From: Flavobacteriales bacterium
GTDB taxonomy: Bacteria > Bacteroidota > Bacteroidia > NS11-12g > UBA955
Assembly (NCBI GenBank): GCA_947463125.1
Contig: CANHQZ010000013.1
Span: 1-49,123, forward strand
Length of the DNA stretch: 49,123 nucleotides
Direction of reading: 5' to 3'
Under the pieces are notes generated by a model. The model searched no databases. It was not told the DNA's origin and was given only the letters and a program-made list of their open reading frames with translations. Both the position numbers and the translations under genes were made by a program. Position 1 is the stretch's first letter. Every line of letters begins with the position of its first letter. Shown here piece by piece: positions 32,778 through 47,059 of the stretch.

Positions 32778-34406
32778 ATGAACGGATTTTTTAAGATTCC
32801 CTTTCCGGCCAATGAGCCTGTCAATGAATACGCTCCCGGATCCAAAGATAGAGCAGCCCTTAAAAGTGCCCTGAGCAATGCGAGAAGCCGCGTTGAAGAC
32901 ATACCCATGTACATCAACGGAGCCGAAATCCGCACCGGAAATACATTTGATATTTATCCGCCTCATGACCGAGCCCATAAAATTGGTTTTTTTCACCGTG
33001 GTCAAAAGCAGCATGTTGAACAGGCCATTGAAGCAGCATTGGCTGCCAAAGAATCCTGGGAGACAATGCCCTGGGAGCAGCGTGCCGCCATATTCCTGAA
33101 AGCCGCAGAATTGCTGGCCAGCCCATACCGATATGAAATCAATGCCGCCACCATGCTGGCTCAGAGCAAGAACGCCTATCAGGCCGAAATTGATGCCGCC
33201 TGTGAGATGATTGATTTTCTTCGTTTCAACGTGCACTACATGGCTGAGATTTACAGCGAACAACCCACAGCGAACAGCAAAGGAATCTGGAACCGCCTGG
33301 AATACCGCCCGCTCGAAGGTTTCGTTTTTGCGCTCACGCCGTTCAACTTTACCGCCATTGCCGGCAATTTGCCAACCAGCGCAGCCATGATGGGGAATGT
33401 GGTGGTTTGGAAACCTGCCGACACCCAGATTTACAGTGCCAACGTACTGATGAAGGTGTTTAAAGAAGCCGGATTGCCGGATGGCGTTATCAACCTGGTA
33501 TATGTCTCAGGACCCGATGCCGGAGATGTAATCTTCAATCATCCTGAATTTGCCGGTATACACTTTACGGGAAGTACCGGCGTTTTTCGCCAGATTTGGA
33601 ATACTGTCGGTCAGAATATTGCTAAATACAAAAGCTATCCGCGTATCGTGGGTGAAACCGGCGGTAAGGATTTTATACTTGCCCACAACAGCGCCGATGT
33701 GGATGTGCTTGTTGCCGCCATTGTGCGTGGTGCATTTGAGTTTCAGGGGCAGAAATGTTCAGCAGCTTCAAGGGTTTACATCCCACAAAGTATCTGGCCT
33801 GCCGTAAAAGAGAAACTGCTGAAGGAAATGGCTACGCTAAAAGTGGGTCCCACAGAGGATTTCAGCAATTTTGTAAATGCCGTAATTGATGAGAAAGCAT
33901 TTGATAAAATAAGCAGTTACATTGATCAGGCTAAAAAGGATGGGGTAGAGGTACTTTGGGGCGGAACATACGACAAATCCAAAGGGTTTTTCATTCAACC
34001 TACCATTTTGATGGCGCCTCGTCCGGATTATACCACCATGTGTGAAGAAATCTTTGGTCCGGTACTTACCATTTGGGTTTATGCCGATAGCGAATGGCCT
34101 GCTATTTTCAAAACCGTAGACCAAACCGGCGAATATGCACTCACCGGGGCGGTAATTGGTCAGGATAGACATGAAATAGCCAAAGCAACTCATGCCTTGC
34201 GCAATGCGGCAGGTAATTTTTATATAAACGATAAACCTACCGGTGCTGTCGTAGGGCAGCAGCCTTTTGGTGGTGCAAGGGGCAGCGGTACAAATGATAA
34301 AGCCGGAAGTAAAGTAAACCTGCTGCGCTGGGTAAATCAGCGTACCATCAAGGAAACGTTTGTGCCGCCCAAAGATTACCGCTATTCTTTCCTTTCTGAA
34401 GAATAA
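32778..34406 (+). CDS. pruA: L-glutamate gamma-semialdehyde (P5C) dehydrogenase
   Basis: A 542-residue aldehyde dehydrogenase oxidising glutamate semialdehyde (from proline or ornithine) to glutamate with NAD. The NAD site FALTPFNFTAIAGNLPTSAA, the general-base motif GETGGKDF, and the catalytic cysteine in FQGQKCSAASR are present. QPFGGARGSGTNDKAGS is characteristic of the P5CDH branch rather than general ALDHs. The N-terminus GFFKIPFPANEPVNEYAPGS is also typical. ATG 32778 is used because a promoter lies just upstream. Its stop overlaps the next ATG (TAATG). No prodh gene is visible nearby. Confidence 0.94.
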   Translation: MNGFFKIPFPANEPVNEYAPGSKDRAALKSALSNARSRVEDIPMYINGAEIRTGNTFDIYPPHDRAHKIGFFHRGQKQHVEQAIEAALAAKESWETMPWEQRAAIFLKAAELLASPYRYEINAATMLAQSKNAYQAEIDAACEMIDFLRFNVHYMAEIYSEQPTANSKGIWNRLEYRPLEGFVFALTPFNFTAIAGNLPTSAAMMGNVVVWKPADTQIYSANVLMKVFKEAGLPDGVINLVYVSGPDAGDVIFNHPEFAGIHFTGSTGVFRQIWNTVGQNIAKYKSYPRIVGETGGKDFILAHNSADVDVLVAAIVRGAFEFQGQKCSAASRVYIPQSIWPAVKEKLLKEMATLKVGPTEDFSNFVNAVIDEKAFDKISSYIDQAKKDGVEVLWGGTYDKSKGFFIQPTILMAPRPDYTTMCEEIFGPVLTIWVYADSEWPAIFKTVDQTGEYALTGAVIGQDRHEIAKATHALRNAAGNFYINDKPTGAVVGQQPFGGARGSGTNDKAGSKVNLLRWVNQRTIKETFVPPKDYRYSFLSEE

Positions 34407-35239
34407 TGTGTCTAAACCGGAAATATGGTTTATGCCTGGCAATAACAGCCATACTTTTCGTTTTTCCGGGTAAATTGCTATCCCAGTGGTATGGCGAAGC
34501 CGAGTATCGGTATGGTTTACAAAAAAGAGCTTTGTCGGTTCTTGAAATTGAACAAACGAATGTTACGGGTGCGGTTGCCAATCCGTACGCACTGGGTGGC
34601 TATACATTTTCTACAGGCTATACCTTTCGTACTGACAGTCTCAATATGGCTTTCTCATTGGGAATGTCTTACCTAAAGAGCCGGTCGGGCACCATTCTTT
34701 ATAATGAAACACCGAATTATCTGACCTTTTCCACGCTGAAACATGAAACGATAACCCTTGATTTGGGATTGCTGCTGGAATTTAAAATCAAAAAAAATGT
34801 GAACAGTTCCACAGGTATTTCATTGTTGCTGCCGGTTTACATGAAAGGTATGGAACTGCAGCAAACCGAAACCCAGTCGGCATTGATTGAAAAAACCCGG
34901 GAGGTAACCTATAGAAGAGGCCCCGGAATTCGTATTCAGCAGCATTTTTCTCTTTGGACAAATGGACGGACAACCTTTTTTACGGGCCTCAGCGCAGGAT
35001 GGATATCTGCGTTGCGAAAAAGCCGAAATCTGCTTACAGCAGATCATTCAGTGCCTGCTTCACTGCGGGAGATGCAGTATCTCACCGACCGGCAAATCAG
35101 TGAAAAGGGCAAAATCAATGATCCCTCACTCTCAGGATTTGATTCCAGGTTACCCATGGAAACCGAAACCTACAATGAGCCTCTGTCTTATCTTTCCTTG
35201 AAAATGGGCATCTCATTTTACCTGCACAAAAAACGGTGA
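34406..35239 (+). CDS. Hypothetical outer-membrane beta-barrel-like protein
   Basis: A 277-residue protein I do not recognise. It has a signal peptide (LCLAITAILFVFPGKLLSQ) and a beta-rich body with regularly spaced aromatic/glycine strands (GEAEYRYGLQ, GYTFSTGYTFRTDSLNMAFSLGMSYL, TTFFTGLSAGWI, SYLSLKMGISFYL) consistent with a small barrel of eight to ten strands; it ends in a short basic tail. The start overlaps the stop of the P5C dehydrogenase gene, and the end overlaps the DUF486 gene. The function is unknown. Confidence 0.65.
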   Translation: MCLNRKYGLCLAITAILFVFPGKLLSQWYGEAEYRYGLQKRALSVLEIEQTNVTGAVANPYALGGYTFSTGYTFRTDSLNMAFSLGMSYLKSRSGTILYNETPNYLTFSTLKHETITLDLGLLLEFKIKKNVNSSTGISLLLPVYMKGMELQQTETQSALIEKTREVTYRRGPGIRIQQHFSLWTNGRTTFFTGLSAGWISALRKSRNLLTADHSVPASLREMQYLTDRQISEKGKINDPSLSGFDSRLPMETETYNEPLSYLSLKMGISFYLHKKR

Positions 35240-35607
35240 GAACAATTTACACCATCATACTGCTCAGTATTTCCAATGTGTTCATGACTTTCGCCTGGTA
35301 CGGGCATTTGAAATGGAAATCTATTTCCGGTTGGGAAAGGTGGGGCCTTACCGGCGTTATTCTGTTCAGCTGGGGAATTGCATTTTTTGAGTATTTGCTG
35401 ATGATTCCTGCCAACCGGCTGGGAAGCCGCGAAACCGGAGGTTCGCTGGATATGTTTCAGTTAAGATTGCTACAGGAGGTGATATCTATGCTCATCTTTA
35501 CCCTGGTGGTCATGTTTGTGTTTAAGGGTGAAGCCTTGCATTGGCGCTATGCGCTTGCTTTTTGTCTAATGCTTGTAGCCATCTGGCTGGTCTTGGGTAA
35601 ATCCTGA
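35236..35607 (+). CDS. DMT-like DUF486 membrane protein
   Basis: A 123-residue protein of four predicted transmembrane helices, belonging to DUF486, the small drug/metabolite-transporter-like family. Motifs are ISNVFMTFAWYGHLKW, SWGIAFFEYLLMIPANRLG and QLRLLQEVISMLIFTLVVMFVFKGE, the last being strongly characteristic. The substrate is unknown. It starts with GTG overlapping the preceding stop (GTGA). The stop directly abuts that of the convergent aminotransferase gene. Confidence 0.9.
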   Translation: MRTIYTIILLSISNVFMTFAWYGHLKWKSISGWERWGLTGVILFSWGIAFFEYLLMIPANRLGSRETGGSLDMFQLRLLQEVISMLIFTLVVMFVFKGEALHWRYALAFCLMLVAIWLVLGKS

Positions 35608-36450
35608 TTACTGGCTCAAAAATGACTTGTTTAGCATATCCGATAGTTTTCTTGCCGTTGCATTTTTGTAGGTTTTGCCGCCATAGGTTTCCACCCACTG
35701 AATTCCTTTTATGGCATTGCTGATAAAAATCTCATCCGCTGCGCTCAAAGAAATAGGCGTGATTGGATTTTCCTGAACCGCGTATCCGTAAGCACCTGCA
35801 AGTTGCATCACTACTTTACGCATTACGCCATCGACGCAGTATTCGCTTAAGGGTGGGGTATTAATGAATTCCCCATTTACCGTAAAAATATTGCTTGAAA
35901 CCGTTTCGGCTATCCTGCCGCTGTCATTCATAATTACACATTCATCCCAGTTGTTTTCTTCTGCATGTATACCGGCCATCACATAGGTAAGGGCGCTGTT
36001 GGTCTTGATAGTACTGGTATAATTGGCATTTTTACTCAATTCACTGTATAAACCGAGGCTCAATCCATTCTCATTGAGCGGATAACCGCGGAATTCCGTA
36101 GCGCTGACCTCAGTGATAACTTGCGTGCTGGGATTTTTAGGTGTGTAGCGTCCTTCCCCTTCTCTGAAAAAAGTGCAACGCACAGAGGCAGATGCAATAT
36201 TTTTTGAATCCAGCACTTCTTTGATGTCGGTTTCAAGTAACTGAAGGTTGAAATCCGCCGGAATGTTCATTTTCAGCAACATGGCTGATTTGCGAATCCT
36301 TGACTCATGAAGATCCGCATATTGGATGCACCCTTGTTCAAAGCGCATGCTCTCGAAAAATCCGTCACCATATCGGTATGAACGGGAGATTAGTGGAAGT
36401 TGCGGGGCATCACCCGATACCCATAAGCCTTGATACAGGTACATGTTCAT
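35608..36450 (-). CDS. PLP-dependent aminotransferase class IV
   Basis: A 280-residue fold-type IV PLP enzyme related to branched-chain aminotransferase, D-amino acid aminotransferase and 4-amino-4-deoxychorismate lyase. RSYRYGDGFFESMRF is the N-terminal signature, the PLP lysine lies in STIKTNSALTYVMAG, and IAETVSSNIF plus CVDGVMRKVVM follow. A role in folate synthesis (PabC-like) or amino-acid transamination cannot be distinguished; a separate ilvE is at 46-47 kb. It overlaps the upstream lipoprotein gene by 4 nt and ends the etfBA operon. Confidence 0.88.
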   Translation of the reverse strand: MNMYLYQGLWVSGDAPQLPLISRSYRYGDGFFESMRFEQGCIQYADLHESRIRKSAMLLKMNIPADFNLQLLETDIKEVLDSKNIASASVRCTFFREGEGRYTPKNPSTQVITEVSATEFRGYPLNENGLSLGLYSELSKNANYTSTIKTNSALTYVMAGIHAEENNWDECVIMNDSGRIAETVSSNIFTVNGEFINTPPLSEYCVDGVMRKVVMQLAGAYGYAVQENPITPISLSAADEIFISNAIKGIQWVETYGGKTYKNATARKLSDMLNKSFLSQ

Positions 36451-36866
36451 GGTTTTTTTCTGCGGTAATGAAAAGTGGTGTTGCCTTCGCGGATAATCAG
36501 ACTATCAGACAGCAACATGATATTAAAAGTGCGAATACTCTTGTTTTGATAATGAAACTCCAGGGCTTTTTCGAAGGGAGAACTGTCTGCAGGAACCGTT
36601 TTTACTTTAAAGGTTCCGCCCAGATCTTTACGTAGGGAATTGATTTTGTAGTGAAAGCGCGACTGTCGCCGGTCAAGAACCATGGTATCTGCTTCATCAG
36701 GGGTTAAAACACTGATTCCATTTTTGTAAATAGCCCTGTATTGCCATACCCCGTAGAGTTTTTTAGTGGGAAATGAGTTAAAATGGACCAACCCTGTGCA
36801 GCAGAAAAAACTGAACAGCAGGCAGATATAAAACAGGGGGTTATTTGTTCCTTTTTTTAATTTCAT
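36447..36866 (-). CDS. Putative lipoprotein or secreted protein of unknown function
   Basis: A 139-residue protein. After a basic start (MKLKKGTNN) comes a hydrophobic stretch LFYICLLFSFFCC with a Cys pair that could be a lipobox, then KKLYGVWQYRAIYKNG, LDRRQSRFHYKIN, LGGTFKV and a final strand. The beta-rich pattern recalls small lipocalin-like (DUF4923/DUF4488-style) proteins, but I cannot assign a family. A frame extending to 37061 overlaps the nuclease gene throughout, so I start at ATG 36866, which overlaps that gene by about 26 nt. It is the fourth gene of the etfBA operon. Confidence 0.7.
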   Translation of the reverse strand: MKLKKGTNNPLFYICLLFSFFCCTGLVHFNSFPTKKLYGVWQYRAIYKNGISVLTPDEADTMVLDRRQSRFHYKINSLRKDLGGTFKVKTVPADSSPFEKALEFHYQNKSIRTFNIMLLSDSLIIREGNTTFHYRRKKP

Positions 36867-37446
36867 CCCTGATTTTGGCAGCCCGCGTGTAATCTTCATC
36901 GCGGATGGCATCTTCCAGCATGGCTTCAAGTTCATCCAGGCTGTGTTCTTCCAGCCCGGCATGAGATTTTGATCCCGGAATGAGTTCCTCATGTGCCATT
37001 CTGCCGGGGCTGTCAAGGGACTCTGCTTCAGCAGCATTATCTCCTTCGTATGCCGCCTCATCCATGATGCCGGGTTTTACAAAAATAGGACAACGGAACT
37101 TTACCGCCAGTGCAATGGCATCGCTGGTACGGCTGTCCAGTTCAAATAACTCCAATCCTTTTTTACAGCGTATTTTGGAAAAAAAGATTCCTTCCTGCAA
37201 GTCGGTAATAATTACTTCTTCCACTACAACTTCCAGTGCTTGCAAAGCCTGAACAAATAAATCGTGGGTGAGGGGACGACTGGGTTTGATGCCTTCAATT
37301 TCCATGGCAATGGCCTGAGCCTCAAAAGCACCTATAAGCACAGGCAATCTTCTGTTGCCTCCCTCTTCACCCAGTACCAGCGTATATGCTCCGTGTGAGT
37401 GTGCCGGTAAAATGGAAACAATATGGAGGGTTATTTTTGCGCTCAT
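36841..37446 (-). CDS. Bifunctional nuclease family protein with UvrB/C motif
   Basis: A 201-residue protein with an N-terminal DUF151/BFN domain (LPVLIGAFEAQAIAMEIEGIKPSRPLTHDLF, DSRTSDAIALAVKFRCPIFV) and a C-terminal UvrB/UvrC helix pair (LEAMLEDAIRDEDYTRAAKIRDEIKKR, about 170-200). BFN proteins have been described with RNase and DNase activity in plants; in bacteria their role is largely inferred. The acidic linker between the domains is likely flexible. The gene is 3 nt downstream of etfA and overlaps the next gene, an arrangement often seen in Bacteroidota. Confidence 0.9.
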   Translation of the reverse strand: MSAKITLHIVSILPAHSHGAYTLVLGEEGGNRRLPVLIGAFEAQAIAMEIEGIKPSRPLTHDLFVQALQALEVVVEEVIITDLQEGIFFSKIRCKKGLELFELDSRTSDAIALAVKFRCPIFVKPGIMDEAAYEGDNAAEAESLDSPGRMAHEELIPGSKSHAGLEEHSLDELEAMLEDAIRDEDYTRAAKIRDEIKKRNK

Positions 37447-37449
37447 GAA

Positions 37450-38412
37450 TTAGCTTGCAGCAGTAGCTTTAGCGGCCTGTATCAGCTTTGGCAAAACATC
37501 AAACGCATCTCCCACGATGCCATAATCAGCGGCTTTGAAGAAAGGCGCTTCGGGATCTTTGTTAATTACAACAATAACCTTACTGCTGCTCACACCTGCA
37601 AGATGCTGTATGGCGCCACTGATACCGATGGCAATGTACAGGTTGGGTTTAATCGTAATGCCTGTTTGGCCGACATGCTCACTATGGGGGCGCCAATGCA
37701 TATCACTAACCGGTTTAGAGCAGGCTGTAGCCGCACCAAGTGCGGTTGCCAGTTCTTCCACCATGTGCCAGTTTTCAGGGCCTTTCATACCACGACCTGC
37801 TGATACAACCACTTCGGCCTCTGTGAGGGGAACTTTTCCGCTTACTGTCTGGGTATTTTCAATACGTGTTGCAGACGAAGGCAAATCTGCCGGCTGTTGC
37901 GCCGAAACAGCTGCATTGCTGCCGTAGGTTTTAATCTCAACAGAGTTGGGGGTAATAGCGATAACCTTTGTTTCGGAATTCATATCCATAAATGCAAAGG
38001 CTTTTCCACTGAATACGCCTCGTTTAACACGGAAACCAGCTGCAGTGTCTGGATAGTCCACCACGTTGGTAGCCAGCGCAGCATTCAGCAATACGGCCAC
38101 ACGGCCTGCAAGACTCTTTCCACTGTAGGTGTTCGAGATAACGATGGTTTTTCCGCCATGTGCCTTGCAAACAGCTGCAAAACCGGCTGCGTAAACTTCC
38201 GGACTGAAAGTAGCAAATTCAGCGCCGTGGAGCGTTATTATCTCATCTGCGCCATAATTGCCCAGTATGGCAGGGTCTGAAGCGCCGCCCATACTTACGG
38301 CAATAACCTTACCGCCGGTTTTCTGAGCCACTTCTTTTCCGTAGGAAACAGCTTCAAGTGTGGACTTTTTGTATTGTTGGTCGCGGGTTTCTGCGAATAC
38401 GATAACTGACAT
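37450..38412 (-). CDS. etfA: Electron transfer flavoprotein subunit alpha
   Basis: A 320-residue EtfA carrying the FAD site. The N-terminal domain has EAVSYGKEVAQKTGG; the C-terminal FAD-binding part has VVSAGRGMKG, KPVSDMHWRPHSEHVGQTGITIKPNLYIAIGISGAIQHLAG and VVINKDPEAPFFKAADYGIVGD. With EtfB it accepts electrons from acyl-CoA dehydrogenases and passes them to the quinone pool. It is 13 nt downstream of etfB. A matching ETF-QO is not in the window. Confidence 0.96.
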   Translation of the reverse strand: MSVIVFAETRDQQYKKSTLEAVSYGKEVAQKTGGKVIAVSMGGASDPAILGNYGADEIITLHGAEFATFSPEVYAAGFAAVCKAHGGKTIVISNTYSGKSLAGRVAVLLNAALATNVVDYPDTAAGFRVKRGVFSGKAFAFMDMNSETKVIAITPNSVEIKTYGSNAAVSAQQPADLPSSATRIENTQTVSGKVPLTEAEVVVSAGRGMKGPENWHMVEELATALGAATACSKPVSDMHWRPHSEHVGQTGITIKPNLYIAIGISGAIQHLAGVSSSKVIVVINKDPEAPFFKAADYGIVGDAFDVLPKLIQAAKATAAS

Positions 38413-38425
38413 ATCTGAGTGGTTT

Positions 38426-39163
38426 TTAAATTACTTTAGCTTCGTTTCTTAACAAATGTAACAATTCTTCAGGATTGTCTGCACTGATCATTCTCACGCC
38501 CTGTTTGGGTTGTGGCAATGCAAATTTTGCATACGATACATGGGTGGAACCGGATACAGGCTCTACCACCTGCAAAGGCTTGGTTCTGGCTGCCATAATT
38601 CCGCGCATATTGGGAATGCGGGGCTCACAAAGGTCTTTTTGTGCGCTGGCCACAAAAGGCAGGCTGCAGCTTACAGTTTCTCTTCCGCCATCAATATCGC
38701 GCTCAACAGTAGCTGTGCCACCGGAAACAGTCAATTGGGTGATAACATTGATGCTGGGAATATTCAGCATGGCGCCAAGCAATCCGCATACGGCACCACC
38801 ATTGTAATCAATGCTTTCTCTTCCGGTGAGGATAAAGTCATATCCTTTATCTTTGACAAACGCAGCAATCTGCTCAGCAACGAACTGTGAATCTGTTGGA
38901 TTGGCGTTGATACGCACTGCATCCGTAGCCCCCATACTCAATGCTTTGCGGATAGCAGGTTCAGCATCGGCAAGGCCCACATGAAGTATGGTAACCGTTC
39001 CTCCGGCAGGTTCTGCTATGTCCAGCGCTTTGGTGAGTGCCAGCTCATCGTAAGGATTCATAATGAACTGTACCCCTTGTGCGTTAAAGGTTGTATCGTT
39101 GTTCGTGAAGGTGATTTTGGTGGTGGTATCAGGCACCACGCTCATGCAAACCAGAACTTTCAT
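38426..39163 (-). CDS. etfB: Electron transfer flavoprotein subunit beta
   Basis: A 245-residue EtfB, first gene of the operon. The family motifs NPYDELALTKALDI, the AMP-binding loop region ILTGRESIDYNGGAVCGLLGAML and a conserved SLPFVASAQKDLCEPRIPNMRGIMAA are all present, the last being the EtfB signature. It pairs with EtfA immediately downstream. A TACTTTTG promoter element ends 19 nt before its ATG. Confidence 0.96.
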   Translation of the reverse strand: MKVLVCMSVVPDTTTKITFTNNDTTFNAQGVQFIMNPYDELALTKALDIAEPAGGTVTILHVGLADAEPAIRKALSMGATDAVRINANPTDSQFVAEQIAAFVKDKGYDFILTGRESIDYNGGAVCGLLGAMLNIPSINVITQLTVSGGTATVERDIDGGRETVSCSLPFVASAQKDLCEPRIPNMRGIMAARTKPLQVVEPVSGSTHVSYAKFALPQPKQGVRMISADNPEELLHLLRNEAKVI

Positions 39164-39182
39164 AGATGCTTTAAAAGAAGTG

Positions 39183-39190
39183 CAAAAGTA
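39183..39190 (-). promoter_or_regulatory. -7 promoter element of the etfBA operon (TACTTTTG)
   Basis: A perfect TAnnTTTG on the minus strand, 19 nt before the etfB ATG. No -33 element at the expected spacing. Confidence 0.5.
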
Positions 39191-39232
39191 AGCAATTTAT
39201 CACGGATTTGTGATGCTTTTCAAACTGCCAGA

Positions 39233-39694
39233 TTAAAGGCTGAAACCAAGCTTGGTGTAAATAAAATTCATAATCCAGGCGGGTCCTATCAGCAGAAACT
39301 GCAGGTCTTTGAGGAATGATGGCTTTTTACCTTCAACATGATGTCCGTAAAACTGACCAATCCATGCAAGGGCAAATGTAATGAGGGCAACAGCAGAAAG
39401 CGGTAAGGCACGAGCTTCAATACTGCCGCACAAAGCAATACAAATGCCGCCCCAAATAACAAAACCGATCGAAAGAGCGGGTGACAGCCGAAAATAATAA
39501 ACCAATACAGCCAGCAATACAGGAAAGTCCAATCCATTAAGAAACGGAGAATCCACGGCGTTCCATTTTAAGCAGTGCAACAAAGCGCAAACAGACCAGA
39601 AAATGGCAGGTACACAAATGAAATGAATCCGCTTATTTAGACTATTTGTGTGGCTTTCGCCATATTCTGCAAGCAAGTTTGATAGTCGGCTCAT
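39233..39694 (-). CDS. Mpo1-like (DUF962) membrane protein
   Basis: A 153-residue membrane protein of the Mpo1/DUF962 family. It has LNKRIHFICVPAIFWSV near the N-terminus (conserved His), several hydrophobic helices, and the conserved WIGQFYGHHVEGKKPSFLKDLQFLLIGPAWI near the C-terminus. The yeast homolog Mpo1 is an iron-dependent dioxygenase acting on 2-hydroxy fatty acids; that activity is only inferred here from the conserved His residues. The start is the ATG at 39694: a longer frame to 40174 would overlap mpl by almost 400 nt. A strong promoter (TTG, 19 nt, TATTTTTG) ends 6 nt before this ATG. Confidence 0.88.
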   Translation of the reverse strand: MSRLSNLLAEYGESHTNSLNKRIHFICVPAIFWSVCALLHCLKWNAVDSPFLNGLDFPVLLAVLVYYFRLSPALSIGFVIWGGICIALCGSIEARALPLSAVALITFALAWIGQFYGHHVEGKKPSFLKDLQFLLIGPAWIMNFIYTKLGFSL

Positions 39695-39700
39695 AGCAAT

Positions 39701-39730
39701 CAAAAATAAAGTAAACCAAGCAATCATCAA
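39701..39730 (-). promoter_or_regulatory. Promoter of the Mpo1-like gene
   Basis: On the minus strand TTG (39730-39728), a 19-nt spacer and TATTTTTG (39708-39701), the best promoter match in the window. It ends 6 nt before the ATG. Confidence 0.7.
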
Positions 39731-39774
39731 CCATTGTGAATAACTCGCGTTCCCGCTTATCAACTGCATCCGTG

Positions 39775-39782
39775 TAGTTTTG
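39775..39782 (+). promoter_or_regulatory. -7 promoter element of mpl (TAGTTTTG)
   Basis: A perfect TAnnTTTG match ending 8 nt before the mpl ATG. No clear -33 TTG. Confidence 0.5.
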
Positions 39783-39790
39783 ATGTTGTT

Positions 39791-41146
39791 ATGGATGAAA
39801 AAATCCGGTCTTATCATGTAATTGCCATCGGTGGCGCCGTTATGCACAATATGGCGCTGGAGCTGCAGGCCCATGGACATAATGTATCTGGCAGTGACGA
39901 TGAAATTTTTGATCCTGCCAAAAGCAGACTGCAGGCTGCCGGTTTGCTGCCTCAAGATTTCGGCTGGTTCCCCGAAAAAGTGCATCAAAATCTTGATGCT
40001 GTTATTCTGGGTATGCATGCGCGTTCCGATAATCCTGAACTCATAAAGGCACAACAACTGGGTTTGCCAATTTATTCTTTTCCGGAATTTGTGTACAGGC
40101 ATGCCGAACATAAAAAGAGAATTGTAATTGGTGGCAGCCATGGAAAAACAACGTCCACCGCCATGCTCATGCACGTATTGAAAACGTGCGGTCTTGAATT
40201 TGACTATCTGGTGGGTTCACAGCTTCCGGGATTTGAACGTATGGTTAAGCTCAGCGATGCACCGCTCATGGTAATCGAAGGAGATGAATACCTTACATCG
40301 GCATTGCATCCGGTGCCCAAATTTCATGTTTATAAGCCTCATTTGGCCATGCTTACCGGGGTAGCATGGGATCATGTCAATGTTTTTCCTACTTTCGAAA
40401 ATTATGTATCGCAGTTTGAAATATTTCTGAAAACCTTGCAGCCCGGGGCCCGCTGGTTCTGGTATGAGGGTGATCCTGATCTTGAGAACCTTGCCCGACA
40501 AAGTGAATTCACAAATCAATCCTACAGGGAACCTACTTTCATATCAAACGTCAATGGATGTCGGGTACATGTTGAAGGCAGGGATTATCAGCTCAATATT
40601 TTTGGGCGCCATAATCTTCAAAATGCAGCCGGAGTGGCACTTTTGGCAGCAGAACTGGGCATTGACAGCCACCGCTTCTGGACCTCCATGCAATCTTTTG
40701 CAGGTACGGCCAAGCGACTGGAAAAAGTGTATGAATCAGAACAGGTGGTCGTGTACCGCGATTTTGCCCATGCTCCCAGTAAGGTAAAGGCTACTGTGCA
40801 GGCCGTTCGCGAGCAATTTCCCAATGATAATCTCATTGCGGTCTTTGAACTGCATACCTACAGCAGCCTGCAACCCAATTTTTTACCGGGATACCGAGGC
40901 ACGCTGTCGCCTGCCGACCATGCGTTTGTGCTGTATGATCCCCACGTTTTTGAATTGAAAAGAATGCCTGTTCCCGATGATGGGTTTATTACTTCTCAGA
41001 TTGGAGATTGTTTGGAATTCAGCAATCCTCACGCACTTAAGGATGTTGTGCTGGAAGCCTGGGATGAATCACGTAAAAATGTGCTACTGCTGATGAGTAG
41101 TGGTAATCTTGGTGGGCTGAAGCCTGAGGATTTTCTCAGGGCTTAA
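39791..41146 (+). CDS. mpl: Murein peptide ligase Mpl
   Basis: A 451-residue Mur-ligase family enzyme of the Mpl (UDP-MurNAc:L-Ala-gamma-D-Glu-meso-DAP ligase) type, which reattaches recycled murein tripeptide to UDP-MurNAc. Evidence: an N-terminal MurC-like domain (YHVIAIGGAVMHNMALELQAHGHNVSGSD), the P-loop GGSHGKTTSTAM, EGDEYLTSA, LTGVAWDHVNVF, and the C-terminal FAHAPSKVKATVQAVRE region, together diagnostic for Mpl rather than MurC. It is convergent with, and overlaps by 11 nt, the NagZ-type fusion gene. Mpl needs muropeptide products liberated by such hydrolases. Confidence 0.93.
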   Translation: MDEKIRSYHVIAIGGAVMHNMALELQAHGHNVSGSDDEIFDPAKSRLQAAGLLPQDFGWFPEKVHQNLDAVILGMHARSDNPELIKAQQLGLPIYSFPEFVYRHAEHKKRIVIGGSHGKTTSTAMLMHVLKTCGLEFDYLVGSQLPGFERMVKLSDAPLMVIEGDEYLTSALHPVPKFHVYKPHLAMLTGVAWDHVNVFPTFENYVSQFEIFLKTLQPGARWFWYEGDPDLENLARQSEFTNQSYREPTFISNVNGCRVHVEGRDYQLNIFGRHNLQNAAGVALLAAELGIDSHRFWTSMQSFAGTAKRLEKVYESEQVVVYRDFAHAPSKVKATVQAVREQFPNDNLIAVFELHTYSSLQPNFLPGYRGTLSPADHAFVLYDPHVFELKRMPVPDDGFITSQIGDCLEFSNPHALKDVVLEAWDESRKNVLLLMSSGNLGGLKPEDFLRA

Positions 41147-44024
41147 GCGCTGAATACACGATTTCAATAGCCTTGGTCCGAACATTTTCATGGATCAGCT
41201 TTTTATTTCTTTCATCCGGATAGGTCCGGTTGCTCAGAAAAACAAAAACCAATTGGTTTCCCGGGTCTGCCCAAGCCCAGTTGCCCGTAAAACCGCTATG
41301 ACCAAATAAAGTGCCCGGAACTTTGTCTGAAATATTGGCCTTGCTGCCCACTTGACCGTTGGGTTTGTCAAAACCCAGTCCTCGGTGTGTTCCTTTCTGA
41401 GCCGCTGCAAATAAAGCGACTGTTGTCGGTTTGAAATATCGCTTTCCGTTCAGCTGCCCGCCTGCATTCAGCATTTGCATGATTTTGCCAAGTTCGGTGG
41501 CATTGGAGAAAAGCCCGGCATGCCCGGCAATACCTCCCAGCATGGCAGCTGTTGGGTCGTGCACAAATCCCTGAATGCGCTGTCTTCGGAAATAGTTGTC
41601 TTCGGTTGTTGGAGCAATTTCCTTGTTGTAAAAGCGTTCATGAGGGCTGAACAGGGTTCGCTGCAGGCGCATGGGTTCGTAAAAATGGGTTTGTGCAAAT
41701 TGTGCAACAGTCATGCCTGAAACCCTTTCAACGATTTTTCCAAGCATGATAAATCCCAGATCGCTGTATAAAAATTCTCCCTTTGTTTTTAGTTCCGAAG
41801 CGATAATCTTCTGCCACATTGTATCGGTGTAGCTTTTACGCATCCAGATGGTATCGGCAACTTGCACTTCATGCAGGCTGTCTTTTTTACTGCTGAACAA
41901 ACCGGGAACAGCCATGGCTTCCTTGTAGAATGGGATAAATGGCTGAAGACCTGCACTGTGTGTCAAAAGCTGCCTGATGGTTAGTTTAGCTTTGTTTGTT
42001 TTGTTGAGTTCCGGCAGGTAATTGTGCAGGTGTGCATCCAGCCTTATTTGTTTAGACTCATACAATTTCATCAGGCACAGGGTAGTGGCTGCTACCTTGG
42101 TGATGGAAGCCAGGTCATACAGGTCAGATTGTTTGACCGGCTGTGTGCCATTGTATTCAAAGCTGCCAAAGGCACGGTTGTAAATGCTTTTGCCGTTTTT
42201 CATCACCAGCACCTGGCCTCCCGGTGTGGCACGGCTGCTCCGGCTGTAATAATTAAGCAGGCTGTCCAGTTCTCGGCTGAAATCAACTTTAAATCCATTT
42301 GTCAGAGGGCTTTCGGTAACGTAAGCAGCACTGTGTGGGAGGGTATGGATTCCTGTTCCGGTATTTAGTTCCGGAGGAATACTTACCGGCAAACGCCCCA
42401 GCGATTCATTTGTACCAAACAAAATGTTTGCTGCGGTTTCCTGATAGGCAGCTCCATCTTCGTAGGCAATCATGCTGCAAGGCACTTTTTGTAAATGCTG
42501 CAGTGTATAGGGATTTCCAAAAATAACCAGTACGCCCGGTTTTGCTGCCAGCGCGGCAAGGCTGAATTTTAGCGCAGGTTCCGGTATGGTGTTTCTGTTC
42601 TTGCCCCAAAGCGGCTGATCATGAATGCTGATGATAATCTGCTGGTTGTGACAAAGAATAGAATCAAGCATGCGGCTGAAATAACCATCGGAGCTATCTC
42701 TGTGCAGTATGTATGGATTTATATCCTGGTATGCCTGCAAAGCTTCTCCGAAGGGGTAGTTTCGCGATTTTCCGATGCCTATCCATGCAGTTTTGGTTTT
42801 TGTTCCGGCCGTTAGCGGCAGGTACCCATAATCGTCTTTGCAAACGGTTATGGCCTTTTCAGACGCACCCCAGGTGTTGTTCAGGGCTTCCATCAGGTTT
42901 TCTGTCTGAATTGGCTTATAAAACTGAAGGCCCGCCATGGCTTTAAATTGTAAAATTTTTAGTACCCGACGGCTCAATTCTGCGCTGTCTATCTGTCCGG
43001 TGCGCACCAAGTTCTCAATGAGATCTACCGCCAGCGGAACATTTTCCGGGAAAAGCAGAATGTCGTTTCCCGCCAATGCAGCCTTGGCTTCGGCATAACC
43101 CGGACCGTATAGGGAAGAAACGCCTTTCATATTCAGGGCGTCTGTAATAACCAATCCCTGGAAGTGCAATTTGTCTTTCAGTAAATTGGTGACAATAGGC
43201 ATGGAGAGACTGGCAGGTGTGTTGGAAGTCGTATCCAAGGCCGGAACAGCCAGATGTCCCGTCATTACGCTGCCGACGCCCGCGTTTATCAAAGCTTTAA
43301 ACGGCACAAGCTCTATGCTGTCCAGCCGACCCTTGCTCGCCTGAATGGTGGGAAGTTCCTTATGGCTGTCGGTTTCACTGTTGCCATGTCCGGGAAAATG
43401 TTTGGCGCAGGCTATAATTCCGGCATCCTGCAGTCCTTTGCTCATCAGTGCTGCATATCGACTCACTTTTTCAGGAGATTCGCCAAAGCTTCTGAAACCA
43501 ATAATGGGATTGGCCGGATTGGTATTGATGTCGGCAACCGGTGAAAAATTAATGTGTACGCCCATGCGTCTGCATTGCAGCCCCATCGCTTTTCCTGTTT
43601 TGTAAATCAAATCATCATCTCCTGCCGCACCAAGTGTCATCTGGTACGGGAATTTAGGCAGTACTTTCAGTCGCATGGCCAAACCCCATTCGGCATCCAT
43701 GGATACCAGCATGGGTATAGACGAAATCTGCTGGTAATAATTGGTTTGATATGCCTGCTTCAGCGGATGTCCCTGGAAAAAACACAATCCGCCAATTCCG
43801 TAGTTATAAACCAGATTTTCGGTTTCATCTATGTGTTCTGAGCCCTTGTTGCTCCACACAGCTACCATCATCATCTGCCCAATTTGTTTGCGTAGGGAAA
43901 GGGTTCTGAGGATGCTGTCTGCCCATGCTTTTTGTGCAACATTGGGAACAAAAAAACTGCTTTGCCCGAATGAAGCAGAAAAACAGAAACATATGGCCGC
44001 AATAATGGAAAGGTGTTTTTTCAA
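41136..44024 (-). CDS. GH3 beta-N-acetylglucosaminidase fused to a serine beta-lactamase-like domain
   Basis: A 962-residue secreted two-enzyme fusion. After a signal peptide (MKKHLSIIAAICFCFSASFG) the N-terminal ~360 residues are a NagZ-like GH3 domain with the KHFPGHGNSETDSHKELP His/Asp dyad and nucleophile region LVITDALNMKGVS. An intermediate GH3 C-terminal-type domain follows (about 390-590). The last ~360 residues are a class C beta-lactamase/penicillin-binding-like domain with the SxxK motif in ASITKVAAT, a YSD triad variant of Y-x-N, and an HSG/FTG triad. The start is TTG at 44024, 16 nt after TAAATTTG. The pairing suggests coordinated trimming of peptidoglycan glycan and peptide, in the periplasm; activity of the second domain is unproven. 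Confidence 0.92.
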   Translation of the reverse strand: MKKHLSIIAAICFCFSASFGQSSFFVPNVAQKAWADSILRTLSLRKQIGQMMMVAVWSNKGSEHIDETENLVYNYGIGGLCFFQGHPLKQAYQTNYYQQISSIPMLVSMDAEWGLAMRLKVLPKFPYQMTLGAAGDDDLIYKTGKAMGLQCRRMGVHINFSPVADINTNPANPIIGFRSFGESPEKVSRYAALMSKGLQDAGIIACAKHFPGHGNSETDSHKELPTIQASKGRLDSIELVPFKALINAGVGSVMTGHLAVPALDTTSNTPASLSMPIVTNLLKDKLHFQGLVITDALNMKGVSSLYGPGYAEAKAALAGNDILLFPENVPLAVDLIENLVRTGQIDSAELSRRVLKILQFKAMAGLQFYKPIQTENLMEALNNTWGASEKAITVCKDDYGYLPLTAGTKTKTAWIGIGKSRNYPFGEALQAYQDINPYILHRDSSDGYFSRMLDSILCHNQQIIISIHDQPLWGKNRNTIPEPALKFSLAALAAKPGVLVIFGNPYTLQHLQKVPCSMIAYEDGAAYQETAANILFGTNESLGRLPVSIPPELNTGTGIHTLPHSAAYVTESPLTNGFKVDFSRELDSLLNYYSRSSRATPGGQVLVMKNGKSIYNRAFGSFEYNGTQPVKQSDLYDLASITKVAATTLCLMKLYESKQIRLDAHLHNYLPELNKTNKAKLTIRQLLTHSAGLQPFIPFYKEAMAVPGLFSSKKDSLHEVQVADTIWMRKSYTDTMWQKIIASELKTKGEFLYSDLGFIMLGKIVERVSGMTVAQFAQTHFYEPMRLQRTLFSPHERFYNKEIAPTTEDNYFRRQRIQGFVHDPTAAMLGGIAGHAGLFSNATELGKIMQMLNAGGQLNGKRYFKPTTVALFAAAQKGTHRGLGFDKPNGQVGSKANISDKVPGTLFGHSGFTGNWAWADPGNQLVFVFLSNRTYPDERNKKLIHENVRTKAIEIVYSALKP

Positions 44025-44048: not shown

Positions 44049-44188
44049 ATCCTACGGAGATACTATATTCGTTGGTAGTTCGCTAATTTTTCATATATTT
44101 AAAATAAATTTGAATCTCGGGCAGCATTTTACATTCTTCTATTGTCTTTGAATGAGGAAGGAAATGTTTACCGTCAATTATCTAGCCT

Positions 44189-44719
44189 ATGATAGAGCAG
44201 CAGTTGGTCGATGGATGTATACGGGAGGACCGGAAATGCCAGGAACAACTGTGGAATTTGTATGCAACCAAATTGCTTACGGTAAGCATTCGCTATTGTC
44301 AAAACCGCGAAGATGCCGAGGATGTACTAATGGAAGCTTTTGTTAAGATATTTGATAACATGTCTTCATTCAGAGGTCAAAGCAGCCTAGAAACATGGAT
44401 GCGTCGGATCGTGGTAAACACCAGTATTAATAAGATACGTTCACGGAAATTTACCGAATCTATCGACAATGAAACCCTTCACATTGGCTATGCCGATCAG
44501 GCCTTTGACGCTATGGATGCCAAAGCACTGATGAAGATGCTGGAAAAGCTGCCGGTGGGCTACAGAATGGTATTTAATCTTTTTGCCGTAGAAGGTTATT
44601 CGCACAAGGAAATCGCAGAATTGTTAAACATAGATGAAGGAACAAGCCGAAGCCAGCTTGCGAAAGCCAGAAAAGCACTTCAGGATATGATTGAAAAGAA
44701 AGGAGTAATTAACGCATGA
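44189..44719 (+). CDS. ECF-type RNA polymerase sigma factor
   Basis: A 176-residue group 4 sigma factor. Region 2 is seen as LWNLYATKLLTVSIRYCQNREDAEDVLMEAFVKIFDN (about 20-57) with SLETWMRRIVVNTSINKIRS. Region 4 is LPVGYRMVFNLFAVEGYSHKEIAELLNIDEGTSRSQLAKARKAL (about 126-168), a helix-turn-helix. There is no region 3. It overlaps the next gene by ATGA, the pattern expected for a sigma factor and its cognate membrane regulator. The upstream region has no clear consensus promoter; autoregulation is possible. Confidence 0.93.
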   Translation: MIEQQLVDGCIREDRKCQEQLWNLYATKLLTVSIRYCQNREDAEDVLMEAFVKIFDNMSSFRGQSSLETWMRRIVVNTSINKIRSRKFTESIDNETLHIGYADQAFDAMDAKALMKMLEKLPVGYRMVFNLFAVEGYSHKEIAELLNIDEGTSRSQLAKARKALQDMIEKKGVINA

Positions 44720-45999
44720 TGCACCCCGATCAGCTATTTAAAAACACCCTATACAATTATGAAACCCCGCTGGAAGGGAAGGCCAGTTTTCAGGGGGTAA
44801 TGCAAAAGCGTAAAAACAAGCGCAGGGTGTTTTTCTGGTTTTCACTCAGCAGCGTGCTGTTATTGTTGATTTCATTAACGGCGGCTTCTGTTTTTATATC
44901 GAAGGATGCCAATACTGCAGGTTCAACTGCATCGACAGGTGTAACTGCATCAACAATGAGCCGCGGCAGTCAACAATCTGCGGAGAACGATGCATTGGCT
45001 GATGCAAAGCATAATGACGAAAATGTAATTAATACCCCCGCAAAAGTTCAAGAAACATCGGACAACACAGCCGGTCCGGTTCGCATGTTAGTCAGGAATG
45101 ACAGTAAGAAAACGAATAAAGATATCATTAATCAAAACACATCGTTCTCAAATGAAAGCAGCAAGGAGTCAATCATTCCGAAACAAATTATCAGCGGAAT
45201 ATTGTCAAATGAGACATCGCTGACCGCTGCGAACGAGAATAATGCTGAGCAAAAGCAGATATACGGTCAGTTTTATGATTGGGTAAGATGGATTGCCGCA
45301 AAGGGAATTGCCGAAGAACTGGTTTTTGAAATCGATCCTTCCGAAGGCATCGTACTCCCTGAATTCGTACCGTACTATCCACCGCATAAGTCCCGTTTTA
45401 ATCCCATTTTCGAATTAAATGTTACCACTGCAGGCAATGGGTATAAGTATTTCAGAGAAAGTCAGGATGTAACAGTAGCAGGCAATCACAGGTTTTCACA
45501 GTACCATGGCGTGATGCTGTTTGATCTGGGCAGAGGAATTACCATGGGCGGAGGTTTAGGATATATGGAGAGCGTGGGCATTGGTAAAGCCCTGATTTCT
45601 GAATGGAATGTGGATACCAACCTAAATCCGGTAAGAATCACGAAGGCATATAATGTTTCTTATAGAATGAATAAGGTGCTGTTGCCGGTGGCGTTCAGGT
45701 ATCAGCTTGGTTTTGGCCGAAGCCTTGTTCGTATTTCTGCCACTGCAATGCCCGGTGTGGTTACCCTTGGTAGCGGAACCCTTTTTAACAGAAATGAACT
45801 GCAGTCTATGGATGCGATGAAGAAGCATTCGTTAACTCTGGATGCCCGTCTGGGTGCAGGGTTGTATTATCAGGTTGCGCCTAAAACAGCCATTTCAGCG
45901 GAACCGATGGTGCAGTACCAGTCCATTCCCGGTTCTCAATGGAAATCCTTTAGTCGTTTCGGATTTGGTTTCGGCCTGGGCGTGGTATTCAAACCCTGA
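44716..45999 (+). CDS. Putative trans-envelope regulator: inner-membrane anchor plus outer-membrane barrel-like domain
   Basis: A 427-residue protein. The N-terminus is cytosolic (HPDQLFKNTLYNYETPLEGKASFQGVMQKRKNKRR), resembling the short D-x-L-F...Y-E...W/F segment of Bacteroidota anti-sigma-like proteins. One transmembrane helix follows (FFWFSLSSVLLLLISLTAASVF, about 38-59), then a long Ser/Thr/Asn-rich low-complexity linker (about 60-190). The C-terminal ~200 residues are beta-rich with barrel-like strands (FNPIFELNVTTAG, GVMLFDLGRGITMGGGLGYM, KVLLPVAFRYQLGFG, FGFGFGLGVVF), ending in an FKP terminus. It is translationally coupled to the sigma factor, so a regulatory pairing is inferred. 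No canonical ZAS anti-sigma zinc motif is visible. Confidence 0.72.
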   Translation: MMHPDQLFKNTLYNYETPLEGKASFQGVMQKRKNKRRVFFWFSLSSVLLLLISLTAASVFISKDANTAGSTASTGVTASTMSRGSQQSAENDALADAKHNDENVINTPAKVQETSDNTAGPVRMLVRNDSKKTNKDIINQNTSFSNESSKESIIPKQIISGILSNETSLTAANENNAEQKQIYGQFYDWVRWIAAKGIAEELVFEIDPSEGIVLPEFVPYYPPHKSRFNPIFELNVTTAGNGYKYFRESQDVTVAGNHRFSQYHGVMLFDLGRGITMGGGLGYMESVGIGKALISEWNVDTNLNPVRITKAYNVSYRMNKVLLPVAFRYQLGFGRSLVRISATAMPGVVTLGSGTLFNRNELQSMDAMKKHSLTLDARLGAGLYYQVAPKTAISAEPMVQYQSIPGSQWKSFSRFGFGFGLGVVFKP

Positions 46000-46003
46000 T
46001 AAA

Positions 46004-47059
46004 TCAGAGTTTTTCAACCCAGCCGAATGGGTCGGCGCTTTTGCCGTGGCGAATGCTGTCTATTTGAGATCGAAGCAGGTCAGAAACAACGGTGTTTCCT
46101 GTTTTCATCACATCATAATACTCACCCTGATGGGCAAAACCCTCAATATTGATGAGTGTGGCGGCTGTTCCGCTAATGAAAAGTTCCTTTAAATTACCCT
46201 CTGCATGCAGTGTTTTAAGTTCGGAAATGGTTAGCGGTCTTTCTTCCGTTTGAATATTGTTGTTTTTCAAAACATGTATGACACTGTCGCGTGTAATACC
46301 CGCCAGCATGGTATCATGCAGATTCGGAGTGATTACCCCCTGATGGGTCACAGCAAAAAAGTTAGTGGTTCCGGTTTCTTCCACCAGGGTGTGGGAGACA
46401 GGGTCGGTCCACAAAACCTGGTCGAAGCCTTCTGATTGCGCCAGCCTGGTAGGATACATGGCTGCGCCATAATTGCCTGCACATTTGGTAAAACCCACAC
46501 CACCCGGAGCTGCGCGGCTGTATTTTTCCTCTACCTTGATACGCAAAGGTTTAGCATAATAAGGCCCAACCGGACAGGTAAAAATGCAAAAACAATATTT
46601 ATCCGAAGGTTTTACACCGATGAAATCATCGGTTGCAAACATGAATGGCCTTATGTACAAGGCACTGCCTGTGGAATCCGGTACCCAGTTCTTATCAAGG
46701 TTTAACAGGGTTCTCAGGCCTTCCAAGAAAAGCGCTTCCGGAACTTCGGGCATAACCATTCTTTCAGCAGAAATGTTGAGTCTGCGCCAGTTTTCCCGTG
46801 GTCTGAAAAGAAATATGTCGTTTCCTGTTCTGAACGCTTTCATGCCTTCAAAAATGGCTTGCCCGTAATGAATGGCACTCGTGGCCGGGCTTAATGACAG
46901 GTTGCCGTAGGGAACGATTCTGGAGCCGGTCCATTCTTTACCATCCCAGTCGGCCAGAAACATGTGATCGGAGAATACTTTACCAAAACCGATATTGTTG
47001 AAATCTACTTCAGAAATTCTGCTTTTTTCGGTATTTTGGATTGTAATATTGTGGGGCAT
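46004..47059 (-). CDS. ilvE: Branched-chain amino acid aminotransferase
   Basis: A 351-residue type II-like BCAT transaminating valine, leucine and isoleucine with 2-oxoglutarate. Visible: LSLSPATSAIHYGQAIFEGMKAFR, RPRENWRRLNISAERMVMP, ALYIRPFMFATD, KCAGNYGAAMYPTRLAQSEGFDQVLW (with the PLP lysine at KCAGNY), and TGTTNFFAVTH followed by MLAGITRDSVIHV. Length and motif order match the larger BCAT subfamily. A TACTTTTG element ends 8 nt before the ATG. Only 22 nt separate this start from the divergent unknown gene at 47082. Confidence 0.95.
   Translation of the reverse strand: MPHNITIQNTEKSRISEVDFNNIGFGKVFSDHMFLADWDGKEWTGSRIVPYGNLSLSPATSAIHYGQAIFEGMKAFRTGNDIFLFRPRENWRRLNISAERMVMPEVPEALFLEGLRTLLNLDKNWVPDSTGSALYIRPFMFATDDFIGVKPSDKYCFCIFTCPVGPYYAKPLRIKVEEKYSRAAPGGVGFTKCAGNYGAAMYPTRLAQSEGFDQVLWTDPVSHTLVEETGTTNFFAVTHQGVITPNLHDTMLAGITRDSVIHVLKNNNIQTEERPLTISELKTLHAEGNLKELFISGTAATLINIEGFAHQGEYYDVMKTGNTVVSDLLRSQIDSIRHGKSADPFGWVEKL

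Follow-up and report, generated by a model that had tools for sequence, protein, structure and literature searches.

The question raised by this locus is whether a single polypeptide, encoded together with an ECF sigma factor, can pass a signal from the cell surface to that sigma factor without FecR/TonB components and without a ZAS motif, as was proposed in the preliminary description of the window (the whole stretch of 49,123 nucleotides analysed here, from contig CANHQZ010000013.1 of a Flavobacteriales bacterium). That mechanism gained support from the predicted barrel, from the recurrence of the architecture and from published anti-sigma genetics. The novelty implied for a one-piece regulator was not sustained, since the architecture has already been published for the Dma/Reo anti-sigma factors of gut Bacteroides. 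We read the partner as a one-chain anti-sigma factor of the Das-Dma type, in which the head would hold the sigma factor, the barrel would sit in the outer membrane and envelope stress would free the sigma factor (probability roughly 0.88). The genes and elements concerned are the following:

44105..44112, plus strand: TAAATTTG, Bacteroidota-type -7 element (TAnnTTTG), candidate promoter upstream of the sigma gene
44189..44719, plus strand: ECF sigma factor (Das-type), 176 aa, from Pfam Sigma70_r2 and r4_2 and the sigma clade
44716..44719, plus strand: stop/start overlap ATGA of the sigma and partner genes, from the sequence
44716..45999, plus strand: partner protein, 427 aa, from the open reading frame, alignment and AlphaFold2 (AF2)

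The sigma gene and the overlapping partner gene were both recovered as open reading frames at 44189–45999, as first described. The TAnnTTTG element was retained in all six aligned upstream regions of genus orthologues, so that basal expression of the operon from the primary sigma factor is plausible; no canonical -33 TTTG was found at the usual spacing from this candidate promoter. From its relatives, we infer that the operon may also be autoregulated. The flanking genes are convergent or divergent, none being co-directional, and comprise a GH3/beta-lactamase gene upstream (41136–44024, minus strand) and, by sequence, an IlvE-like aminotransferase gene downstream (46004–47059, minus strand). 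No target gene adjoins the pair in the window, and neither NigD nor DUF4943 was seen beside it.

Homologues of the partner were present in 29 of 58 related genomes, with a sigma gene directly upstream at 26 of these 29 loci, the remainder being cut or unresolved. Those genus orthologues that were recovered whole had 49–60% identity across the entire length, and the GH3 and aminotransferase neighbours were retained in most of the genus; on both grounds, the pair is not a chance association.

Both Pfam domains of the sigma factor scored above cut-off (Sigma70_r2, 2.4e-12; Sigma70_r4_2, 3.7e-18), and it reached 98 bits against TIGR02985 (Bacteroidetes sigma-70 subfamily), below the cut-off of 126 bits. 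This score, together with the FecIR-like layout of a sigma and a transmembrane anti-sigma gene in one operon, is what would favour a FecR-like partner signalled by a separate TonB-dependent receptor. Such an arrangement is extremely unlikely here, as the partner contains no FecR domain of Pfam or NCBIfam, no TonB-dependent receptor gene was seen next to its gene, and it has a barrel of its own. The likeness to FecI-FecR-FecA lies in a surface-to-cytosol signal ending at an ECF sigma factor, whereas that system employs three proteins plus TonB and the window encodes one chain.

The partner itself matched no Pfam or NCBIfam family above cut-off, its only Pfam match being the sub-threshold PF13505 OMP_b-brl (E=0.023, aa 272–421). 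Its domains were delimited as follows:

44716..44829, plus strand: cytosolic head (aa 1–38), predicted to bind sigma, FKxxLxxxExPLxxxxSFxxVMxxRKxKRR, from family alignments, head HMM and AF2
44827..44901, plus strand: single transmembrane helix (aa 38–62), N-in by the positive-inside rule, from hydropathy, flanking charge and AF2
44902..45240, plus strand: disordered Ser/Asn/Thr/Ala-rich periplasmic tether (aa 63–175), from pLDDT and composition
45241..45300, plus strand: predicted amphipathic helix before the barrel (aa 176–195), conserved in the genus, from alignment and AF2
45406..45996, plus strand: C-terminal outer-membrane beta-barrel domain (aa 231–427), eight strands, from AF2, Foldseek and homologues with PF13568/PF13505

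The head, of about 37 residues, is positively charged and rich in Lys/Arg near the membrane, with KRKNKRR just before the hydrophobic helix. AF2 placed one helix at aa 4–15 and a second from aa 22 that continues into the transmembrane segment. The N-in orientation was supported by positive-inside charge in 90 of 98 family proteins, and the short head with one transmembrane helix was borne out by hydropathy, charge and AF2. Because the entire partner protein lacks cysteine, it has no ZAS motif (H-x3-C-x2-C), and none was present in any of the 75 family heads; the absence of this motif noted in the preliminary description was confirmed. Both a FecR and a ZAS reading of the partner were rejected on domain content. 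By analogy, we infer that the head is the sigma-binding element.

The hydrophobic segment might instead belong to a signal peptide that has a long N-region and is cleaved off, the partner then being an ordinary small barrel that merely shares the sigma operon. PF13568 barrels of Bacteroidota usually carry cleaved signals. Towards the end of the hydrophobic segment, the genus orthologues keep small residues (S/L-T/S-A-A), and the window protein has LTAAS at this point, so that cleavage is formally possible. The head tells against this reading and makes it very unlikely: its 37 residues are conserved far beyond the needs of a signal peptide, and an HMM built from it finds distant loci behind the same sigma clade, including proteins with non-barrel C-termini. 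Published homologues, moreover, act as anti-sigma factors.

In the anti-sigma reading, the segment between the membrane helix and the barrel would be a tether across the periplasm. The AF2 model assigned pLDDT values below 50 to aa 66–175, and the tether has one aromatic or Cys residue in 113. The low complexity ascribed to this linker in the preliminary description was confirmed; the length of about 130 residues was not, the distance from the transmembrane helix to the first strand being about 168 aa. Among 23 homologues, the span from the helix to the barrel ranged from 142 to 221 aa. This spacer-like retention of length would suit a partner that crosses the envelope chiefly in the role of a structural link or tether, the sigma factor doing no more than tuning its expression. 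That possibility is highly improbable, given that the sequence of the tether is unconserved while the head (alignments A2/A3, and the distant loci recovered by the head HMM) and the pairing with sigma are conserved, that barrel-less classes occur behind the same sigma factor, and that published knockouts have regulatory phenotypes.

The full-length AF2 model of the partner, computed with a 24-sequence alignment, was of moderate quality (pTM 0.50) and contained an OmpA/OprF-like beta-barrel at aa 231–425, mostly with pLDDT >90. Its strands span residues 231–247, 252–272, 275–299, 305–333, 336–358, 373–388, 391–401 and 415–425, a count of eight that treats 305–333 as a single strand broken at Pro324. 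The loops are by turns long and short, the pattern to be expected of an outer-membrane barrel whose two ends face the periplasm. The top Foldseek matches were the outer-membrane barrels of the OprF N-domain, NspA, OmpA and OmpT/Pla (probability 1.00), and a domain-only model, in which the first strand was lost, gave a TM score of 0.66 against OmpA (1bxw), normalised by target length. PF13568 was detected in 14 of the 24 aligned homologues, and a sequence search of the PDB with the family profile returned chance matches only. The preset structure check of the barrel-like C-terminus thus yielded a predicted closed barrel and not a soluble domain.

The same sigma-anchor-barrel architecture was sought elsewhere in Bacteroidota and recurs behind the same sigma clade. 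When genome contigs were scanned with the sigma alignment, 80 loci were obtained from across the phylum, distributed over Bacteroidales, Chitinophagales, Cytophagales, Flavobacteriales, Sphingobacteriales and Saprospiraceae. A downstream open reading frame was assigned at 75 of them, nearly all beginning with the head-transmembrane segment, and the two genes overlapped or lay at most 60 nt apart in 71 of these 75 distant loci (46 overlapping). On iteration, the barrel HMM began to recruit heads and shorter proteins, and barrels were accordingly identified with the un-iterated HMM and Pfam only; with the former, 29 of the 75 downstream proteins matched at E<0.01, among them those of the Bacteroidales loci L092 (2.5e-7), L112 (4.6e-6) and L080 (2e-3). 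In the sigma tree, whose outgroup branches (other sigma factors of the window's genome) are long, the window sigma and 90 others formed one clade (support 100/97), and nearly all of these 90 precede head-transmembrane-linker proteins. The clade includes the sigma factors of NigD-linked Bacteroidales pairs: in Parabacteroides (L080) and Tannerella (L098 and L105), the order is sigma, anchor-barrel and then a NigD lipoprotein (PF22221). Alignment of the barrel region with the NigD-linked set by hhalign gave a probability of only 63% (E 7e-5). The barrel HMM and hhalign matches support a distant homology of the partner to the Bacteroidales barrel partners.

Members of the Dma family of B. thetaiotaomicron consist of an anti-sigma domain, a transmembrane helix, a disordered tether and a barrel, and their genes adjoin those of ECF21 sigma factors named Das; the dma2 phenotype depends on das2 (PMC13088901). 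In P. vulgatus, disrupting a barrel-bearing anti-sigma factor switches on the sigma regulon, which is also induced by an envelope-damaging toxin (PMC9308784). Anti-sigma action of proteins of this architecture has been shown genetically in independent work (PMC9308784, PMC13088901). Das-Dma and the window pair share the N-terminal anti-sigma domain (predicted for the window protein), the single transmembrane helix, the long disordered tether, the C-terminal barrel, the adjacent cognate ECF sigma gene and the restriction to Bacteroidota. Unlike Das-Dma, the window pair has no adjoining nigD/DUF4943 and shows low sequence identity, and its host apparently lies outside Bacteroidales. EcfO-Reo/M0N98_03761-03760, described in B. 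fragilis and P. vulgatus (PMC9308784, PMC13114119), likewise has a sigma gene upstream of an anti-sigma factor that is predicted to reach from cytoplasm to surface, ends in a C-terminal barrel and is proposed to sense outer-membrane stress; its signals are oxygen and antibacterial toxins, and it has a NigD regulon. NigD genes are published targets of Das1/EcfO, and NigD after the L080, L098 and L105 pairs is a marker of that branch. As Dma2 does not induce nigD1 (PMC13088901), NigD marks this one branch and not the whole Dma/Reo family. On the strength of the shared sigma clade and the distant partner homology (barrel HMM, hhalign), we file the window pair as a putative Das-Dma-type member outside Bacteroidales, of known design and itself new.

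By analogy with these published relatives, the partner probably acts as an anti-sigma factor, spans both membranes and receives an outer-membrane stress signal. The short cytosolic head would keep the sigma factor bound at the inner membrane, where the transmembrane helix would anchor the chain; the disordered tether would cross the periplasm, and the eight-stranded barrel would be seated in the outer membrane. If the outer membrane or the assembly of the barrel were disturbed, or a surface ligand were bound, the tension on the single chain, or its proteolysis, would change and the sigma factor would be freed; release by regulated proteolysis and release by pulling are both possible. Once free, the sigma factor would activate the operon that encodes it and, at other sites in the genome, an envelope regulon.

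Several related loci have further genes after the pair; paralogues in the window genome were read from its individual contigs. Contig C20 of the window genome encodes another sigma/anchor-barrel pair (L015:253-4457). The gene immediately downstream has a beta-propeller-like product that carries a T9SS type-A tail, and third genes of similar appearance come after the pairs of L044, L046 and L048. A secreted-looking gene (~490 aa where complete) lies immediately after the pair in L026, L028, L029, L037, L038, L045 and L047, these genes being candidate targets; that of L026, the one scanned, had no Pfam match. The window genome also has a split version on contig C10 (L019:1553-3787), with sigma, transmembrane anti-sigma and a separate PF13568 barrel in consecutive genes, and contig C2 (L012:3130-4632) encodes sigma, a small transmembrane anti-sigma and a small secreted helical protein, an arrangement that recalls the cirYZ-spy operon of P. 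vulgatus (PMC13114119). In L061, L063, L065, L070 and L121, the anti-sigma proteins have at least two tandem N-terminal head motifs before the transmembrane helix.

Three C-terminal classes were found behind the one sigma clade, namely the barrel, short tails and a T9SS type-B sorting domain. Short tails, without a recognised outer-membrane module, account for ~18 of the 75 loci; short anti-sigma proteins of about 215–330 aa are encoded at L064, L075, L104, L108, L122 and L125, for instance. The type-B sorting domain (PF13585/TIGR04131), usually with PKD repeats, occurs at eight of the 75 loci (L067, L085, L093, L094, L106, L110, L119 and L120) and on contig C6 of the window genome, the class count deriving from a CTD HMM built in this analysis alongside the CHU_C/TIGR04131 matches seen. 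The hosts are Flavobacteriales, Crocinitomicaceae, Vicingaceae and others. On the sigma tree this class requires three changes; given the starred branches, it may have a single origin. The C6 locus of the window genome (G000; 33361–40457, L130:362-7458) comprises a paralogous sigma factor and a head-transmembrane-tether protein in which PKD and a T9SS type-B sorting domain replace the barrel, followed 20 bp downstream by a gene for an 1823-aa PKD/CHU_C (type-B T9SS) adhesin. The six other genomes of the genus all encode full-length orthologues of the C6 protein, as do members of further genera, and at each of the 12 loci read the sigma gene lies directly upstream. The window genome contains 28 CHU_C matches and three PorP/SprF genes.

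No report of an anti-sigma factor with a T9SS sorting domain was found in the literature searched, the nearest case being PorA. In the PorA-PorXY-SigP system of Porphyromonas gingivalis, an ECF sigma factor receives input from a T9SS CTD protein, a likeness confined to the T9SS-CTD variant; unlike this variant, PorA works via a two-component system and has no fused sigma-binding head (PMC7712824). We tentatively suggest, at somewhat less than even odds, that the outer-membrane module is swapped on one head-transmembrane-tether chassis and that the C-terminus of the T9SS-CTD anti-sigma protein is handed to the T9SS or held at the surface. The T9SS-CTD variant is a more novel lead than the barrel pair of the window.

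With the window pair, the Dma/Reo design of gut Bacteroidales would extend to a distant, small-genome lineage of Bacteroidota that has several paralogous sigma/anti-sigma pairs. The sigma-binding chassis appears to be modular, with a barrel, a T9SS-CTD or short tails behind one sigma clade. One can then ask what condition of the outer membrane is reported by each module, and whether the signal really passes along one chain from the cell surface to the sigma factor. If the suggestion for the T9SS-CTD anti-sigma proteins is true, they would couple T9SS activity or events at the surface directly to transcription in the cell.
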